DNA of 25,555 bases from positions 1-25,555 of the IMG/VR virus record IMGVR_UViG_3300021962_000587; one strand, 5' to 3'. Below, one piece after another: positions 2,131-20,018 of this stretch (position 1 is its first letter; each line of letters opens with the position of its first letter). Source of the DNA: a virus. The notes under the pieces are model-generated. The model ran no database searches, had not been told where the DNA came from, and worked only from the letters and a program-made list of their open reading frames with translations. Made by a program: the position numbers and the translations under genes.

Positions 2131-2346
2131 TTAATCTGTATTTAGTGCGTCTTTATTCAAAGCCAACTCTTGAATTTCTCGGACTATGGAGCCACACAAA
2201 ACATCGATGATGTCCACACCTTTGACTTTTGCGCTTGTCAACTCCATCCAGTCAGTTAAAAACCCATTTTCAGGGTCAGCAGGGTAATAATCCAACTCAC
2301 ATTCGATAATCTCGTCAAGATAATGGTGTTTGTAATTGAATATCAT
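2131..2346 (-). CDS. hypothetical acidic small protein
   Basis: A 71-residue acidic protein (MIFNYKHHYLDEIIECELDY...) that looks like a compact alpha/beta domain without metal-binding or catalytic motifs. Upstream of ATG 2346 lies GAGGAAG at good spacing, inside the end of the preceding 59-residue gene, which it overlaps by 32 nt. I do not recognise the family. Placement among nin-like genes suggests an accessory role in replication or host takeover. Confidence 0.65.
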   Translation of the reverse strand: MIFNYKHHYLDEIIECELDYYPADPENGFLTDWMELTSAKVKGVDIIDVLCGSIVREIQELALNKDALNTD

Positions 2347-2494
2347 TTTCTTCCTCGATTTTGTTTCTCACCCATTTTGAGCCGCCATAATCTTTGAGTT
2401 TCTTTTTTTGTGGTTTGGTAATCACAATATTGACTCGGATTAACTCCTCTGGATATTTTTTTCGGCCAGCGCCTTCGCGTTTACCGCCTCTCAT
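2315..2494 (-). CDS. 59-residue basic DNA-binding-like protein
   Basis: Starts MRGGKREGAGRKK, followed by 'LIRVNIVITKPQKKKLKDYGGSKWVRNKI'. This matches the layout of short phage ribbon-helix-helix-like proteins: a basic GRKK arm, a beta strand, a helix with 'L...GGSKWVR', then a second helix. The ATG overlaps the stop of the 30-residue gene upstream (ATGA at 2494-2491). It is likely a small transcriptional regulator or DNA-bound accessory protein. This rests on pattern, and the dimer-forming strand (residues 20-27) is the main support. Confidence 0.65.
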   Translation of the reverse strand: MRGGKREGAGRKKYPEELIRVNIVITKPQKKKLKDYGGSKWVRNKIEEENDIQLQTPLS

Positions 2495-2583
2495 TTAATG
2501 AGGACATCAAAATAATGGAGGAGTCCGACACACAATGCCAAACCGACCAGAGTTGCTGCTGCGATATCTTTCAAAGTTTCCAT
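2491..2583 (-). CDS. 30-residue single-TM microprotein
   Basis: ATG 2583 has a strong RBS (CAGGAG, spacer 6). The product METLKDIAAATLVGLALCVG... has a 16-20 residue hydrophobic helix and a short polar start. It lies in the otherwise empty gap after ninB and is translationally coupled to the next gene by an ATGA overlap. Good RBS plus coupling make it a credible gene. Role unknown. Confidence 0.65.
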   Translation of the reverse strand: METLKDIAAATLVGLALCVGLLHYFDVLIK

Positions 2584-2626
2584 GATGATCTCCTGTTGTT
2601 GATGTTTGAAATTCTACATCACTTTT

Positions 2627-3046
2627 TCAATAAATTGGGTCATGTGTTGTTTTTATGCCGTTTTCTGCGCACCAAGCCAAAAGCCACTCTGTGAACTCGC
2701 TGGCCTCGTCTTTTGTGAAGTGTCTGGTCTGTTGGCCAAGTTGAACCACTCTCTCGCCATCAAGACTTGGAGCGACTCTGCCAGACGATCTGCCTGTTTC
2801 CTTAGCCCAAGCGTCCAATAAAAATCGTTTCCACGACTCAGTGTCCCATCTTGCTCCAGCGTGTTGCGCTTGCTTGGCAATCTCTCCAATTATGGAATGA
2901 AACATTGCATTCTGTTGGCCAGACCGAGTTTGCTTTTTTACTGTCAAACTGATTTTGTGGCCAGCCATCAACTCAGCCTTGATCTGAATCCAAGCCTCTG
3001 ACAAGACTTTGTGTCCCTGTTGAGGGTTGAATAGGGTCACATTCAT
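2627..3046 (-). CDS. ninB: NinB-family recombination mediator
   Basis: A 139-residue protein matching the lambda NinB (Orf) family. 'KQTRSGQQNAMFHSIIGEIA' lies near residues 38-57, 'W..FLLDAWAKET' at 72-84, 'PSLDGERVVQLGQQTRHFTK' at 93-112 and 'EFTEWLLAWCAENGI' at 117-131. In lambda, NinB binds single-stranded DNA and SSB and helps load recombination proteins on ssDNA, replacing RecFOR. This phage encodes an SSB and the ERF annealase on the other arm, so the parts of a recombination pathway are present. The ATG overlaps the stop of the upstream gene by 4 nt. Length is normal for the family (about 145). Confidence 0.9.
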   Translation of the reverse strand: MNVTLFNPQQGHKVLSEAWIQIKAELMAGHKISLTVKKQTRSGQQNAMFHSIIGEIAKQAQHAGARWDTESWKRFLLDAWAKETGRSSGRVAPSLDGERVVQLGQQTRHFTKDEASEFTEWLLAWCAENGIKTTHDPIY

Positions 3047-3378
3047 CCTTTTGCCTTTATTTTGGTTTCGGGCAACTTAATCGCTACTGGCTGGCCAAAA
3101 CCTACTGTGCTGACATAAGCTGTTGCGCACCAATCTCCAGCCTTCAATGTTTCGTCAAACTCATGGACAATTTGTAGCGGGTGTTGTTTGTCCCATTCCA
3201 TTGTGTGTGGCTCACTATCAGCCCAACACCTTGCAACGATCAAGCACTTTGATGCCGCATAACCCACTACATAAGATCGAGGATGAACATGGCGCGGTTT
3301 ACTAATCAACTTCCACTTCTTTTTTGCACACCATTTTTCAATTGCAGCAACAGTTTCTTTTTGCAATTTGGTTGTCAT
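3043..3378 (-). CDS. conserved hypothetical between rusA and ninB
   Basis: A 111-residue protein, basic at the start (MTTKLQKETVAAIEKWCAKKKWKL). A beta-rich middle ('SYVVGYAASKCLIVARCW', 'PLQIVHEFDETLKAGDWCATAYV') follows, then a lysine-rich end. Overlaps of 4 nt with both rusA (upstream) and ninB (downstream) show it belongs to the same coupled operon. I do not recognise a domain. The position between a Holliday-junction resolvase and a ssDNA recombination mediator suggests a DNA-processing accessory. Confidence 0.7.
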   Translation of the reverse strand: MTTKLQKETVAAIEKWCAKKKWKLISKPRHVHPRSYVVGYAASKCLIVARCWADSEPHTMEWDKQHPLQIVHEFDETLKAGDWCATAYVSTVGFGQPVAIKLPETKIKAKG

Positions 3379-3797
3379 GCTTCCCTCACTAAAATTTCAG
3401 CCTTGGCAATCTCGCCATAAGTTTTGTGAATGTGCAGACTGACAATCTGCGAGTCGTTAAGAAAAACGATCTGATCCATGCCATCGATGATCGCTTTGGC
3501 AACATTGTCAGCGTCTGGCCGCTTTATGTGCTTTTCCTGCCCAGCCAAACAAGCCTCAGCGCGTTTTTTTGAGTAAGACTGAGGAATCGGAAAGGTTAGG
3601 TGAATAAACGCCTCCAAAGCCGAATCCAGTGGCTTGGATGAACCCATTGCAGCCTTGGCCATCATTGCGACCTCGGCCTCATAAGTTCTGGTCTTTTGAG
3701 GAGTGAATGTCTGAACAAACTTTCCCCGAGTTGAGAATCTTGGACGTCCTTTTGGTACTGGTGCGCCATAGACTACAAAACAAACTTGGAATGTCAT
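3375..3797 (-). CDS. rusA: RusA-family Holliday junction resolvase
   Basis: A 140-residue enzyme expected to cut four-way DNA junctions as a Mg-dependent homodimer. The signature is intact: 'GAPVPKGRPRF' near residues 11-21 and 'RPDADNVAKAIIDGM' at 93-107. The latter carries the family's Asp cluster (D95, D97, D105), followed by 'ND115SQI'. The start overlaps the stop of the 77-residue gene upstream and the stop overlaps the next start. RusA in the nin-like part of the early operon is typical of lambdoid phages, where it resolves replication and recombination intermediates before packaging. Confidence 0.93.
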   Translation of the reverse strand: MTFQVCFVVYGAPVPKGRPRFSTRGKFVQTFTPQKTRTYEAEVAMMAKAAMGSSKPLDSALEAFIHLTFPIPQSYSKKRAEACLAGQEKHIKRPDADNVAKAIIDGMDQIVFLNDSQIVSLHIHKTYGEIAKAEILVREA

Positions 3798-11609: not shown

Positions 11610-11698
11610 CGCCAGTGCCAAATGATGACTGACACTGACCAGAAAATCAAACTGAACAAACAGATCGCGGCCAACAGAGCAACGATCCAGTCTTTCAT
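11606..11698 (-). CDS. 30-residue single-TM microprotein after the holin
   Basis: Product MKDWIVALLAAICLF..., ending IIWHWR: one TM helix (residues 4-27) flanked by charged ends. The ATG overlaps the holin stop and its own TGA overlaps the next start. The position directly after the holin suits an antiholin or holin partner, but that is inference from place and topology only. Confidence 0.55.
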   Translation of the reverse strand: MKDWIVALLAAICLFSLIFWSVSVIIWHWR

Positions 11699-11880
11699 TT
11701 TCTTAAATCTTTATAAATTGCCCAGACTTTGTGGCCAATGAGCAAAACTGTATAGATCAAGGTGGCCCAAAGCACCAACTCGCTGACCTGAATGCCCATG
11801 ACAGTGGCCAGTGAGACTGTGGCTGGTGGAGCAACTTTGGCAACAATTGCCGCTGTTGTTTCAGTGTGAGAATCTGTCAT
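11695..11880 (-). CDS. small holin, T7-type (class II-like)
   Basis: A 61-residue protein. The first 25 residues are polar to mildly hydrophobic ('VAKVAPPATVSLATVMG'). A strong TM helix follows ('SELVLWATLIYTVLLIGHKVW', about 33-53), then a basic tail 'AIYKDLRK'. The pattern 'L..W...A.IYTV..IG.K' resembles the T7 gp17.5 holin family. A holin would make timed holes in the inner membrane so that the signal-less endolysin can escape. It is the first of the lysis genes and overlaps the preceding gene by ATGA. Confidence 0.75.
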   Translation of the reverse strand: MTDSHTETTAAIVAKVAPPATVSLATVMGIQVSELVLWATLIYTVLLIGHKVWAIYKDLRK

Positions 11881-12152
11881 CGCTCTTGAACCTCGATCAA
11901 AAGTGTCCTGTCCTCAGTCCGAGCAGGACTGTTGTTGGTCACAATTCGATTTGTCAGACGATAGGATTTGCCAGCAGTGCCACCAGAAACCCAAACGACA
12001 GTCGATGTGTCTAATTTTGAGTTTGAATTGATAGTGATCGAATCAGGATTGATCCAACTTGAAGTTGAGATAACCTCACCACTTTGAAGCCAGTCAGACC
12101 AGTCAAATCCATAATCCAAAACTGCATTCGGGTCTTTTATAAAGTCAGCCAT
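11877..12152 (-). CDS. phage fibre-tail adaptor-like protein
   Basis: ATG 12152 has GGAGG six bases upstream, giving 91 residues (the frame is open to 12188 without an RBS). It begins 'MADFIKDPNAVLDYGFDWSDWL', then 'GEVISTSSWINPDSI', 'VVWVSGGTAGKSYRLTNRIVT' and 'DRTLLIEVQER'. This is a compact Ig-like beta sandwich typical of proteins that sit between fibre and tail or decorate virions in phages of this kind. The first residues overlap the end of the repeat protein gene. The stop overlaps the holin start, linking late structural and lysis genes. Confidence 0.75.
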   Translation of the reverse strand: MADFIKDPNAVLDYGFDWSDWLQSGEVISTSSWINPDSITINSNSKLDTSTVVWVSGGTAGKSYRLTNRIVTNNSPARTEDRTLLIEVQER

Positions 12153-13179
12153 TTGAAACCTCCAAAATTCGATCCTCGTTGGCAACATACATCACCCGAG
12201 ATTCTAGCGAAACCAAGATTTCTCTGTTTTCAGCATATACATACAAAAGATTGCTTGCAGCCGAAACCGCATAAGCCATTGCAGTCGGAGAAGTTGCCGT
12301 GACAGTGGCCAACAGTGCCTGAATAGAGGCAGTTCCAGACTGAGAAGTATTTGGAACAACCGAGCCGACAGTGTTGATATTTGCAAAGGCATTGCCATCG
12401 CCTCTGGCCGTTGCAGTCGGTGCAAGGTCTTGAACCAAAGGAATGAACACCTCAACCAAAGCAGTTCCAGAAACCGAGAACTCTGGCTCATTGGCCGCAA
12501 CAGTTCCAATCAGTGCCGATGCAGTTGCAAATCCGACAGCCGTGACACTTGGAACAGTTGCTGTGACAGTCCCAATGTTTGCTTGAGCAATGTTTGAAAC
12601 AAAAGCATTTGAACTTGGAACAGTGGCTGTGACAGTTCCAATGCTTGACGATGTGTTGCCATCACCAGTCGCAGAAAACGCCAAAACAGTCGCTGTGGCC
12701 GATCCAATGCTTGCTTGAGCAATTGCATCACCAGAAGCACTTGAATTCGGTGCAGTAGCAGTGACTGTGCCAATTGTGACCTCAACGATTGTTTGAGGGA
12801 AAGCAGTCGCGTTTGGTGCTGTGGCCGTGACAGTTGCGATCAGAACCTGAATGTTTGCTTCACCAGTTGCACTTGCATTTGGTGCAGTGGCAGTGTCTGT
12901 CAGGAAAGACGCTTGAATCAGCGCATCGGCTGTCAGATTAACATTTGGGACTGTGGCTGCGACAGTGCCAATTGTGGATGTCGCTGTGGCCTCTCCAGTT
13001 GCCGTTGCGTTTATTGCACTTATAGTAACAGTGCCAATTGTGACTTGGACTAGAGCATTAGCCAAGATCGATGCTGAAGGGACAGTCGCTGTGACTGTAC
13101 CAATGGACGCACTCGCAGTCGCATCGGATATTCCCGATGTGCTGATTGGATATTCTGAGAGTGCATAATTTCCAAACAT
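12145..13179 (-). CDS. 22-residue repeat protein, probable tail fibre or fibril
   Basis: A 344-residue protein. The 20-residue N-terminal lead (MFGNYALSEYPISTSG...) resembles the start of phage virion-attached proteins. Thirteen consecutive repeats of exactly 22 residues follow (21-306), core 'IGTVTATVP'. A 38-residue C-terminal piece has the alternating 'YVYAENREI...ESRVMYVANEDRIL' pattern. Ala, Thr, Val and Ser dominate and no enzyme motif is present, so a beta-solenoid or extended fibre shaft is likely. The start codon overlaps the previous stop (TAATG). It sits between the fibre-chaperone genes and an adaptor-like gene. Function inferred. Confidence 0.75.
   Translation of the reverse strand: MFGNYALSEYPISTSGISDATASASIGTVTATVPSASILANALVQVTIGTVTISAINATATGEATATSTIGTVAATVPNVNLTADALIQASFLTDTATAPNASATGEANIQVLIATVTATAPNATAFPQTIVEVTIGTVTATAPNSSASGDAIAQASIGSATATVLAFSATGDGNTSSSIGTVTATVPSSNAFVSNIAQANIGTVTATVPSVTAVGFATASALIGTVAANEPEFSVSGTALVEVFIPLVQDLAPTATARGDGNAFANINTVGSVVPNTSQSGTASIQALLATVTATSPTAMAYAVSAASNLLYVYAENREILVSLESRVMYVANEDRILEVSNG
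12262..13119 (-). repeat. thirteen degenerate 66-bp tandem repeats within a gene
   Basis: The DNA coding residues 21-306 of the repeat protein is a tandem array of thirteen 66-bp units in one frame with no insertion or deletion. On the plus strand the recurring words include ACAGTTGC/ACAGTGGC and CCAATTGTGAC. Units have diverged at DNA level while keeping register, so the array is old or under structural selection. Confidence 0.85.
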
Positions 13180-16676: not shown

Positions 16677-19600
16677 TTAGCCGCAAAGATAAATGCAAGC
16701 AATCTGCTTGGTTTCGGTTGAATTGGCAAATGTCACATTTTCCCGAGCCTTTGCCACTGTATAACTTCTCGCAATGTCGTCAGCTTGTTTCATGCCCTTG
16801 CCAGCCATGTCAGAGGCCACGATAAAGTCACCAATTTGGATGTCACCACCTTGGCCACAGACATTGATTTTTCCCTCGCCAATGGCATTGACACCAATTG
16901 GTCGATAGGTTTGATAAATTGTGGAATATTCATCTTTTAAGACAAAGACATTCTTTGCCCCTTGAACGCCCTCGACATATTTTCCAAGTGATGCAGGAAC
17001 AAACTCATTTCCACAAACACCAGTAAACACACCAACTGCACCTTTTTGGTTTGCAGTCGTGCTTTTTGTCATTTTGGTAATTGCATCATTGATTGTTGGA
17101 GCAGCGATCAACTCAACATCAACCATGATGTCTCCAACTTCAGGAACATCCTCAGAGAGCAATTGCAAAGCATCATGGCCAGCCGTAAATGGGTAAGCAG
17201 CGCCTGATGTAATGTAATAAGCGTATGAAGTGCCGCCAGTGTAATAAGCAAGACGAATATCAGCAGTTACAGTTGACTGCAAAGTACTAGCACCACCAGT
17301 TTGGAAAGTTCCACCAGAAACGCCAGTGCCTAAATATGCAGCGTGCCTGAAAGTGCTGAAAGTTGAGTTTCCATAACCAACAGCAGCAATTGCGCCAATG
17401 TCAGCATTTGTTGTATTTCTTGTTCCAGCACCGATTGCAAATCCTGTGGATGTATTTGCAAACAAACCACCATAATAACTAACGCTTGATGATGAAAAAG
17501 CACCACCAGCAGAATATCCGCCAATTGATGAACCAGTGCCAAGACCAAAAGTTACAAATGAGTTAAAAACTGCGCTTGTATTGTCTTGGATTTTTGAAAC
17601 AGACAAAGTGTCTGTTGTGATCGAGCCACCATCAATGAATGTTGTCGTTGTTCCACCAGAGCCTTGAGAATTTGCAAGGTTTGTGAAAGTCACCAAACCA
17701 TCTAAATTTTGCCAAGTAAAAACAGAACTAATTGTTTCAGAGTATGAGCCACCAAAATCAATCTCTTGAAAAATTACCCTGACAGCCCAATATTTGTTTG
17801 TCGCTGAAGTTGCACTGACAGCGCTTGGACTGAATGTTGTTGACCAACCTGATGCAGAAATTGATGGAGTTGAAGTGCTGAAATTGTATGCAACTTGAGC
17901 AGTTGTTGGAGCAGTTGGTGCAGTTGATTGACCAGTGTTGTAATAGAAATAAACCTGAGCATTTCTTGGCCCTGTTGCACCATCAGTGACCTCGGCATCA
18001 GTTGTCGCACTTGTACCAGTAGAAAATCCTGAAACATTCCGAGAAAAATCAACAGCTTTCAACCAATAATATTTTGTTGTTGATGCAGGAATACCAGACC
18101 TTGCAAATGTAGAACTTGAAACTTCACCGATCTTTGTTGCAGTGGCTGAATTGTTTGTTGAATTTTCCCAAATCTCGTTATAAAACCAGTCAGCAGCAGT
18201 TGGATTAGTCCAAGACAACTGAATTGTTTTATAAGCACCGACAGCAGTCAGGCTTGTTGGTGCAGAAGGTGCAGTGGTGTCACCAGATAATGTGTGATTG
18301 ATTGTTGCTGAGAATGGGCCATTCTTATCAGAAAAAATTGCTCTGACTCGAATGTTGTATTGCAATGCGACCTCTTGCTGGCCAGCATAGTCATAAACAG
18401 TTTGTGACGTGAAAAGAGATTGCCAAACAGTGTCTGTTGAAAGTTTAAATTGCAACTCATAGCCTGTCACATAAGCCGATGAAACTGCATCCCAAGTGAT
18501 GTGTGCTGCTGGTAATATCGTGCCATCAGGAAAAGTGATATTCTGATTTGTAGCAGTCAAATTAGTTGGTGCTGCTTGAGGTTGAATCAGAGTCAGACTG
18601 GTGTTTGGAGCGCCATCCTGAGCGTCAGAAGTTGACCAGTCATAAGCAGTCGAGTCCTCCTCTTTGAGAACCAGATCAACACCAATGTCCTCATTGAGTC
18701 GCCACTCCATGACCCTGAAATATTTGCTCGACCATCCAAGTTGAGCAATCGTCAAAGCCACCACATCGCCAGCAGTAATGTTAAGACAAGTTGGCTTGCA
18801 TGAAATATTGACAACAATTCCTTGACGCGACTTCAAGAGGTTAATCTTTGCAAGCCTTTGAGCCTCAAGATTGTTTGTCGTGAAGTTGAGATCGAGTTGA
18901 GCAGTTAACTCCTCACCGCCATCCTGAGTCTTAAAAGTCGATGATGCAATCGCTGGATATTCAGTCGCTGAATAAAGTTTGTCAGCATCAGCAAAAACAC
19001 CAGACACTCGATTGAATAGATTGGCTTTTTCGTTCGCACATGAGAGTTGGACATCGCCTCTCAAATCATCGACTGTGATTGTTTGGACAGGACTTGAGAA
19101 TGCACCAACGATCAGCTTATATTTTCCAGAGGAATAAATAAGCATTCCAGCGCAAGTCGAGAGCATATCTTGCAATACTTCGCGAGGACTCTTTGAAGTG
19201 TCCACCACACCATTGAGTGTGTAGCGCTTCTGAGTCACAGAGCCTGAAGCCGTGACAGTCTCATCACAGATATTGGCCGCAGCAATAAATGACGCTGAAT
19301 CAATCTCATCGGCTGTCACTCGCATTCCATAATCACTCATTATGTAATCGCGAATGCAGAGAGCAGGATTGTCAGACCAAGCCGTTGTTGTCGATCTTGG
19401 GTCATAGACTAATTTGCCCTTGACCAAAGCCCTGACTGTTGGAATGCTCGTATAAATTGAGGTGTCGTATTGCATCCTCACATAAACCGAGGAAATTCCA
19501 GTGAGTTTATGGCTCGATGTCCATTTGTTTGTCAGACTCGCAGTCTCAGTCACCAGATCAGAATAAGCAGTGCCACCAGTCAGTGAGTTTTGAATTCTTG

Positions 19601-20018
19601 CTTTGCCAGAATAACGACTGCTTGAGACATTGCCCGAAACAGTGCCAACATCCTCATCGCCAAAATAAACTTTTTCAACCGATTGAATCTGGTGATCTGC
19701 CAATCCAAAGACAGTGTGCAAATATTCGTTGTTTGTGCCTGTGGTGGCCGCATAGAACATCACGCCACCGACTAGGCTTTGGCCATAGATCAGTTGCCTT
19801 GGTGCAGTTGATGATCTGACATTGATTGTCTGACCTTTTAGTTCATTGGCCGCGCTTCCACCAATCAAGCCCATGCTCTGAGCCGCTTTTGTGGTCAGAA
19901 CAAATGAACCAGCCCGAATAGCAGCACGCAAAAACATGGCTTCTTTGCCGATTGCGAAATAAGAGATCGCAGTTTCAGCAAGAAATTCACCAGCCAAATA
20001 GACTACCAGTTCAGCCAT
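16677..20018 (-). CDS. central tail fibre / tail tip attachment protein (J-like)
   Basis: A 1113-residue protein. The N-terminal 1-65 contains hydrophobic segments and 'INVRSSTAPRQLIYGQSLVGG', the entry motif of J/host-specificity proteins. Hub-type domains cover about 70-460 ('YTLNGVVDTSKSPREVLQDMLSTCAGML'). Two fibronectin-III-like domains lie at about 482-580 and 582-676. A Ser/Thr/Gly-rich shaft follows, including 'GSITTDTLSV' (about 798-807). The C-terminal block (about 960-1113) has 'GKINVCGQGGDIQIGDFIVASD' and 'AGKGMKQADD'. It should form the central spike and part of host recognition. The adjacent NlpC/P60-like gene order is classic. Confidence 0.9.
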   Translation of the reverse strand: MAELVVYLAGEFLAETAISYFAIGKEAMFLRAAIRAGSFVLTTKAAQSMGLIGGSAANELKGQTINVRSSTAPRQLIYGQSLVGGVMFYAATTGTNNEYLHTVFGLADHQIQSVEKVYFGDEDVGTVSGNVSSSRYSGKARIQNSLTGGTAYSDLVTETASLTNKWTSSHKLTGISSVYVRMQYDTSIYTSIPTVRALVKGKLVYDPRSTTTAWSDNPALCIRDYIMSDYGMRVTADEIDSASFIAAANICDETVTASGSVTQKRYTLNGVVDTSKSPREVLQDMLSTCAGMLIYSSGKYKLIVGAFSSPVQTITVDDLRGDVQLSCANEKANLFNRVSGVFADADKLYSATEYPAIASSTFKTQDGGEELTAQLDLNFTTNNLEAQRLAKINLLKSRQGIVVNISCKPTCLNITAGDVVALTIAQLGWSSKYFRVMEWRLNEDIGVDLVLKEEDSTAYDWSTSDAQDGAPNTSLTLIQPQAAPTNLTATNQNITFPDGTILPAAHITWDAVSSAYVTGYELQFKLSTDTVWQSLFTSQTVYDYAGQQEVALQYNIRVRAIFSDKNGPFSATINHTLSGDTTAPSAPTSLTAVGAYKTIQLSWTNPTAADWFYNEIWENSTNNSATATKIGEVSSSTFARSGIPASTTKYYWLKAVDFSRNVSGFSTGTSATTDAEVTDGATGPRNAQVYFYYNTGQSTAPTAPTTAQVAYNFSTSTPSISASGWSTTFSPSAVSATSATNKYWAVRVIFQEIDFGGSYSETISSVFTWQNLDGLVTFTNLANSQGSGGTTTTFIDGGSITTDTLSVSKIQDNTSAVFNSFVTFGLGTGSSIGGYSAGGAFSSSSVSYYGGLFANTSTGFAIGAGTRNTTNADIGAIAAVGYGNSTFSTFRHAAYLGTGVSGGTFQTGGASTLQSTVTADIRLAYYTGGTSYAYYITSGAAYPFTAGHDALQLLSEDVPEVGDIMVDVELIAAPTINDAITKMTKSTTANQKGAVGVFTGVCGNEFVPASLGKYVEGVQGAKNVFVLKDEYSTIYQTYRPIGVNAIGEGKINVCGQGGDIQIGDFIVASDMAGKGMKQADDIARSYTVAKARENVTFANSTETKQIACIYLCG

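Follow-up and report, generated by a model that had tools for sequence, protein, structure and literature searches.

A protein of thirteen 22-residue repeats encoded beside a Gp77 adaptor as the probable shaft of a flexible phage filament

We have examined a 25,555-nucleotide stretch of viral DNA (positions 1 to 25,555 of IMG/VR record IMGVR_UViG_3300021962_000587; hereafter the window) that encodes a long repeat protein, here called the rope (Table 1). The protein is built in three parts. A short N-terminal segment (residues 1-20), which starts M-x-x-YALSE-x-PI, is followed by the repeat array and then by a C-terminal tract (residues 307-344) composed of a second repeat type, in which E-x-R recurs about every nine residues. 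The gene directly downstream encodes a protein with a domain named 'Podophage GP4 fiber-tail adaptor protein gp77' (PF23148), and its nearest solved relative is chain 8jou_D of podophage GP4. This gene begins at an earlier ATG (12188) in the list of open reading frames; its likely start is MADF at 12152, so placed that the rope stop and the Gp77 start share eight nucleotides (ATGGCTGA, 12145-12152). The holin comes next, followed by a glycoside-hydrolase-like lysis protein named from its sequence only. Upstream of the rope, in addition to the J-like tail gene, are genes for a phrog_644 protein, a 772-residue fibre protein, an 87-residue protein and a DUF7936 protein.

Table 1. Features of the rope locus and its surroundings in the window
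Feature	Position	Strand	Remarks
Repeat ('rope' or shaft) protein	12145..13179	minus	344 aa; stop codon included
Rope N-terminus, 20 residues, MFGNYALSEYPISTSGISDA	13120..13179	minus	Likeness to BcepIL02 gp56/BcepMigl gp57 by eye
Thirteen exact 22-residue units (rope residues 21-306)	12262..13119	minus	
Rope C-terminal tract, E-x-R repeats of ~9 residues, ENREILVSLESRVMYVANEDRILEV	12148..12261	minus	Putative role
Gp77-domain adaptor gene	11877..12152	minus	PF23148 E=4.1e-25; PDB 8jou_D E=4.6e-8
Holin	11695-11880		Borders rope/Gp77 region; lysis genes
J-like tail protein	16677-20018		Upstream of rope
phrog_644 beta-rich protein, 138 aa	16235..16651	minus	Candidate bead; putative role

The initial annotation divided the array into thirteen consecutive units without a single insertion or deletion, and this division is borne out by comparison of the protein with itself. 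Self-identity is 0.36 at a lag of 22 residues, 0.41 at 44 and 0.42 at 66, against a lag-22 identity of 0.115 +/- 0.019 in 1000 residue shuffles, which did not exceed 0.19 at any of the lags tested. The thirteen units have a mean pairwise identity of 0.38 at the protein level. The most constant columns of the unit are I6, T8, V9 and P14 (11 of 13 units each), followed by A11 (10 of 13), T10, T12 and A18 (9 of 13 each) and G7 and G20 (8 of 13 each), and the array frays at both ends. The composition of the rope is bland, with A, G, S, T and V together accounting for 62% of its residues. At the DNA level the units are on average 49% identical, indicating that the array is old and does not reflect recent slippage.

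The repeats match no Pfam or NCBIfam entry, in agreement with the earlier remark that they were not recognised as a named fibre repeat. A Pfam Sigma_reg_N match to the rope (E=0.025) falls below the cut-off and is dismissed as chance. Searching the PDB with the rope sequence gave no match, and neither the full-length protein nor its C-terminal tract found one among known phages by tblastn, a result to which low-complexity filtering may contribute. Long open reading frames overlap the repeat gene on both strands between 12204 and 13168, antisense or out of frame to it (for example 12793-13053 on the plus strand and 12204-12509 on the minus strand); these are probably by-products of its composition.

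Other IMG/VR contigs carry the rope gene at the same locus. Counting the repeats in these relatives, as the initial annotation had suggested, shows that the number of units is quantal, with 9, 13 or 18 exact 22-residue units. Five further proteins, including that of L107, have thirteen units, those of L017, L031 and L034 have nine, and a single sequence present on four contigs (L003-L006) has eighteen. The 18-unit form contains exactly five extra units, several of which match units 3 and 4 with 76-85% DNA identity. Orthologous units among the 13-unit proteins are 0.78 identical, compared with the 0.38 of paralogous units, and the dN/dS of the rope is 0.19-0.37 (about 0.25), corresponding to purifying selection. 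These unit identities, the dN/dS values and the five-unit difference together show that the gene is real and that the length of its unit is constrained, and the combination of whole-number unit counts with a dN/dS near 0.25 indicates that unit length is under selection, with units gained and lost whole. The earlier proposal of structural selection on unit length is thus upheld. The accompanying expectation of exact unit length in homologues holds at the same locus and breaks down in the L045 protein (35% identical), where a few units differ in length.

The fibre genes upstream vary among the relatives, and the rope, adaptor and phrog_644 genes stay. For example, different genes lie between phrog_644 and the repeat gene in L002 and L004, both of which retain these two genes as well as Gp77. 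The exchangeable region of L004 also encodes an upstream repeat protein (2156-3535) with GNYAxTNPxTG and YNPYVPGN repeats, and fibre-region proteins of L045 (8953-9993) and L032 (8427-11966) display strong multiple periodicity of 17 residues.

A repeat protein accompanies most of the Gp77 genes examined, which came from 59 dereplicated loci in IMG/VR and known phages. Two rules were applied to these loci. The looser required a candidate open reading frame no more than 3 kb from Gp77 with a 17-30-residue period and a score of at least 4.5; the stricter considered periodicity only and required an open reading frame of at least 150 residues within 2.6 kb with a 17-30-residue score of at least 6. 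Given as descriptive counts and not as a significance test, since both thresholds were set after examples had been seen, loci are compared with open reading frames and the 59 loci share descent, the looser rule finds a periodic neighbour at 39/59 loci and one with both periodicity and tandem E-x-R at 34/59 (distant open reading frames passing both, 1/237), and the stricter rule selects 36/59 loci against 2/165 open reading frames lying more than 3 kb away. The 20/59 loci without a periodic neighbour under the looser rule include some that are incomplete and some scored in the wrong frame; because the scorer took out-of-frame frames in L023 and L025, the looser-rule count is conservative there. 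The commonest periods are 22 residues (14 loci) and 20 residues (11 loci), within a range of 18-28 residues for the wider set of repeat proteins near Gp77. Searched with a 44-column profile of the window unit, most of these other proteins proved dissimilar to it in sequence, and the E-x-R tract from Microcystis found no match in the PDB. What the repeat proteins near Gp77 have in common, across diverse phages, is period and context, not sequence.

Three of the loci (L133, L134 and L135) possess two Gp77-domain genes each, and in L134 and L135 each of these genes comes directly after one for a repeat or E-x-R protein, which gives the appearance of a duplicated cassette. At H2 and H3 (Rhodococcus phage REQ1, 25168-25428) the Gp77 match lies under a 'primase/polymerase' annotation, which is possibly a misannotation or an overlap.

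The exact length of the unit and its alternation of hydrophobic and small residues would suit repeats that fold alone, as a beta-solenoid or stacked hairpins and perhaps as a trimer, producing a rigid accessory fibre anchored by Gp77 and carrying no bead. The AlphaFold2 model of the rope monomer does contain two predicted strands per unit. The same model has a mean pLDDT of 45 and a pTM of 0.40, with 0 residues at or above 70, and this tells slightly against the self-contained beta-solenoid first suggested for the protein; the alignment behind it holds 11 sequences, so that a poor model says little. Such a model fits a strand that would become ordered only on a partner and is also compatible with a solenoid. 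More difficult to reconcile with self-folding repeats is that the repeats of related proteins are wholly different in sequence and yet keep their 18-28-residue periods. In addition, the authors of a study of Alishewanella phage LSH1 observe that AlphaFold renders a region of this kind only as a poor beta-helix (PMC13243795). We regard repeats that fold alone as unlikely, and favor a strand whose order would depend on a partner.

The BcepIL02 genome provides a structural context for such a strand. Its adjacent gp55, gp56 and gp57 are all annotated as virion-associated. The first of these is equivalent to the GP4 fibre-I protein gp80 (PF23140, E=2.2e-33; PDB 8jou_a, E=2e-48, 10 chains) and the last carries a Gp77 domain. 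Directly between bead and adaptor lies gp56, a member of phrog_19041 ('virion structural protein') with a C-terminal ENR motif, repeats of about 20 residues and a YALNETPI start. The full start sequences are MNLYALNETPI in gp56 and MDFYALNVTPI in BcepMigl gp57, and the Y-A-L-x-E-x-P-I pattern at the rope N-terminus resembles both by eye. Comparison of gp56 with the PDB, alone and as a two-sequence profile, yielded no match; judged by its position, it would be a GP4-type rope. In the 2023 description by Zheng et al., each GP4 fibre I reportedly has five gp80 dimers threaded along an elongated 'rope' protein, with a gp77 ring as the point of attachment. By eye, gp56 has about eleven units, a number near the ten gp80 chains, and this is the one slender basis for proposing one unit per bead subunit.

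A gp80-type profile search of the window gave no sequence match, and the candidate partner is instead the phrog_644 protein. In the window its gene lies 3 kb from the rope and adjoins the J-like gene. All rope-bearing relatives with contigs extending that far possess it, and it is the only small non-lysis gene seen to be kept in them. Across the Gp77 loci, a phrog_644 or gp80-type gene occurs at 29/59 (18 and 11, respectively), and at 18/29 of those having long flanks. The phrog_644 protein is predicted to be a beta-rich domain (pLDDT 96, pTM 0.89). Foldseek returned no match to this model at E<=0.001. A second fold comparison ranked the baseplate chains 9f4a_A0 (Z 12.8) and 5iv5_BJ (Z 12.4) at the top and also aligned the model with Bxb1 9d93_Ra ('tail wing arm gp31'; Z 9.6, rmsd 2.0, 97 aligned residues, 24% identity). 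Bxb1 gp31 is in addition the best PDB sequence match of the protein, at a non-significant E=0.25. The GP4 bead chain 8jou_a is not listed among the fold matches, an absence that is compatible with a shared fold, and an hhalign comparison of the phrog_644 and gp80 profiles gave a probability of 0.3%. Many phages encode phrog_644 with no repeat protein beside it, and it may therefore be a general tail domain. We put it forward tentatively, and with some doubt, as the bead of the window filament.

A second line of comparison leads to the head filament of the Caulobacter phage phiCbK. The rope repeats match phrog_11583 (E=2e-5), with residues 13-295 aligned to profile positions 2269-2562 of 2796 in a repeat-to-repeat match of partial length to which composition bias possibly contributes. 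This family corresponds to phiCbK gp76 (5439 bits), which Gill et al. (2012) consider the most probable protein of the flexible, ~200 nm head filament and which was undetected in phiCbK virions (PMC3556154). Like the rope, gp76 has IGT[IV]-x-V..P-like repeats of 22-24 residues; those of the IGT[IV] type lie in residues ~1717-2490, mostly 22-24 apart. Furthermore, the gene that precedes gp76 encodes a phrog_644 protein. The 44-column unit profile identifies 5 domains above 4 bits in gp76 (best 15.0), compared with no more than 1 per shuffle in 200 shuffles; it is the domain count only that exceeds the shuffles, the whole-sequence score not being significant. Unlike the rope, gp76 is 2799 aa long and has glycine-rich and Laminin_G domains. 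The window rope has neither type of domain and is for this reason not filed as a phrog_11583 member. Inspection of the gp76 region, made without a Gp77 profile search, revealed no Gp77 gene or E-x-R tract. The sequence evidence for a relationship between the window rope and the gp76 filament candidate is accordingly no more than suggestive. In the satellite phage MiniFlayer (L187), gp6 is a phrog_644 gene, and two genes further on stands gp8, whose product has 1376 residues, Laminin_G domains and a 22-residue periodicity that is only weak; this arrangement, through gp6 or gp8, might contribute to attaching the satellite to its helper.

The place of the rope in the virion of this phage is something that we infer from indirect evidence, and the rope gene borders lysis genes, both of which would be in keeping with an assembly ruler or scaffold, or with a non-virion protein whose repeats are retained for some other reason. 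Such a role is improbable, given that the counterpart BcepIL02 gp56 is annotated as virion-associated and classed as a virion structural protein, and that the adjoining adaptor is of a type whose GP4 representative has been solved as part of the virion. It is highly improbable that the repeats of the rope touch the host surface and make it an adhesin or a receptor-binding fibre, as in the second receptor-binding protein once envisaged for this gene: it lies within the fibre region and its longer relatives phiCbK gp76 and MiniFlayer gp8 have lectin (Laminin_G) domains beside similar repeats, but it leaves no space for a receptor-binding domain, has bland units, persists where adjacent fibre genes are exchanged, and ends in an adaptor-type tract adjoining the adaptor gene.

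Our preferred reading is that the rope is the shaft of a flexible, Gp77-anchored filament, which we consider reasonably probable. The C-terminal E-x-R tract would engage the Gp77 adaptor, whose gene comes next. The 22-residue repeats would not fold into a globule of their own; probably, each unit would contribute one beta segment, docked on or covered by a single copy of a small partner protein, for which phrog_644 is the candidate, and the number of units would set the length of the filament. Any action of the rope beyond anchoring we likewise infer. Among the suggestions of the initial annotation, an accessory fibril has fared best, and the idea of an elongated virion appendage is supported.

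The rope most likely belongs to a widespread and mostly uncatalogued type of appendage that links the solved GP4 fibre and the proposed phiCbK filament. A bolder generalization, which we place on the unlikely side, is a filament cassette common to several morphologies and phiCbK, in which a repeat strand is combined with a swappable bead (gp80 or phrog_644) and Gp77, with units and bead subunits in a 1:1 ratio and the strand serving as a length ruler. Pfam covers Gp77, the adaptor, and Gp80, one of the beads, and the rope repeats matched none of its entries in our searches. Recognition of the strand would let many low-complexity 'hypothetical' or 'minor tail' proteins be named and would account for the failure of structure prediction on regions of this kind. 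It also provides a subunit model of the phiCbK head filament that can be tested. If unit number does set filament length, the natural 9-, 13- and 18-unit variants would form a ready test series.

Several other phage appendages invite comparison with this proposed filament. The neck fibre of Anabaena phage A-1(L), gp80-gp81-gp82, is also flexible and resembles a chain of beads; its beads are trimers joined head to tail with no repeat strand, so that it works alike only, and the gp80 name that it has in common with GP4 is a coincidence (PMC10966104). In LSH1, compared here by description only, gp34, gp35 and gp36 are three co-occurring virion genes. LSH1 gp34 has a poorly modelled C-terminal region, gp35 matches 8JOU_g, described in that 2026 paper as a dimeric fibril protein joining adhesin to collar, and gp36 is a small Ig-fold protein for which the authors propose a role in fibril attachment (PMC13243795). 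LSH1 gp34 has in addition an N-terminal lyase-like domain, which is lacking from the window rope. The window is like GP4 fibre I (beads gp80, adaptor gp77; PDB 8JOU) in that the Gp77 adaptor gene adjoins the shaft gene, and like the GP4-type relatives in the regular short repeats and E-x-R tract of the shaft, a feature deduced from these relatives and not from GP4 itself. It differs from GP4 in having no gp80 (PF23140) homologue recognizable by sequence and in belonging to a phage that has a J-like tail-tip gene and is not a podophage, and its repeats are unrelated in sequence to those of BcepIL02 gp56. The kind of structure to which we assign the rope is known from one solved podophage fibre, of which the window would hold a version that differs in its repeats and, probably, in its bead.
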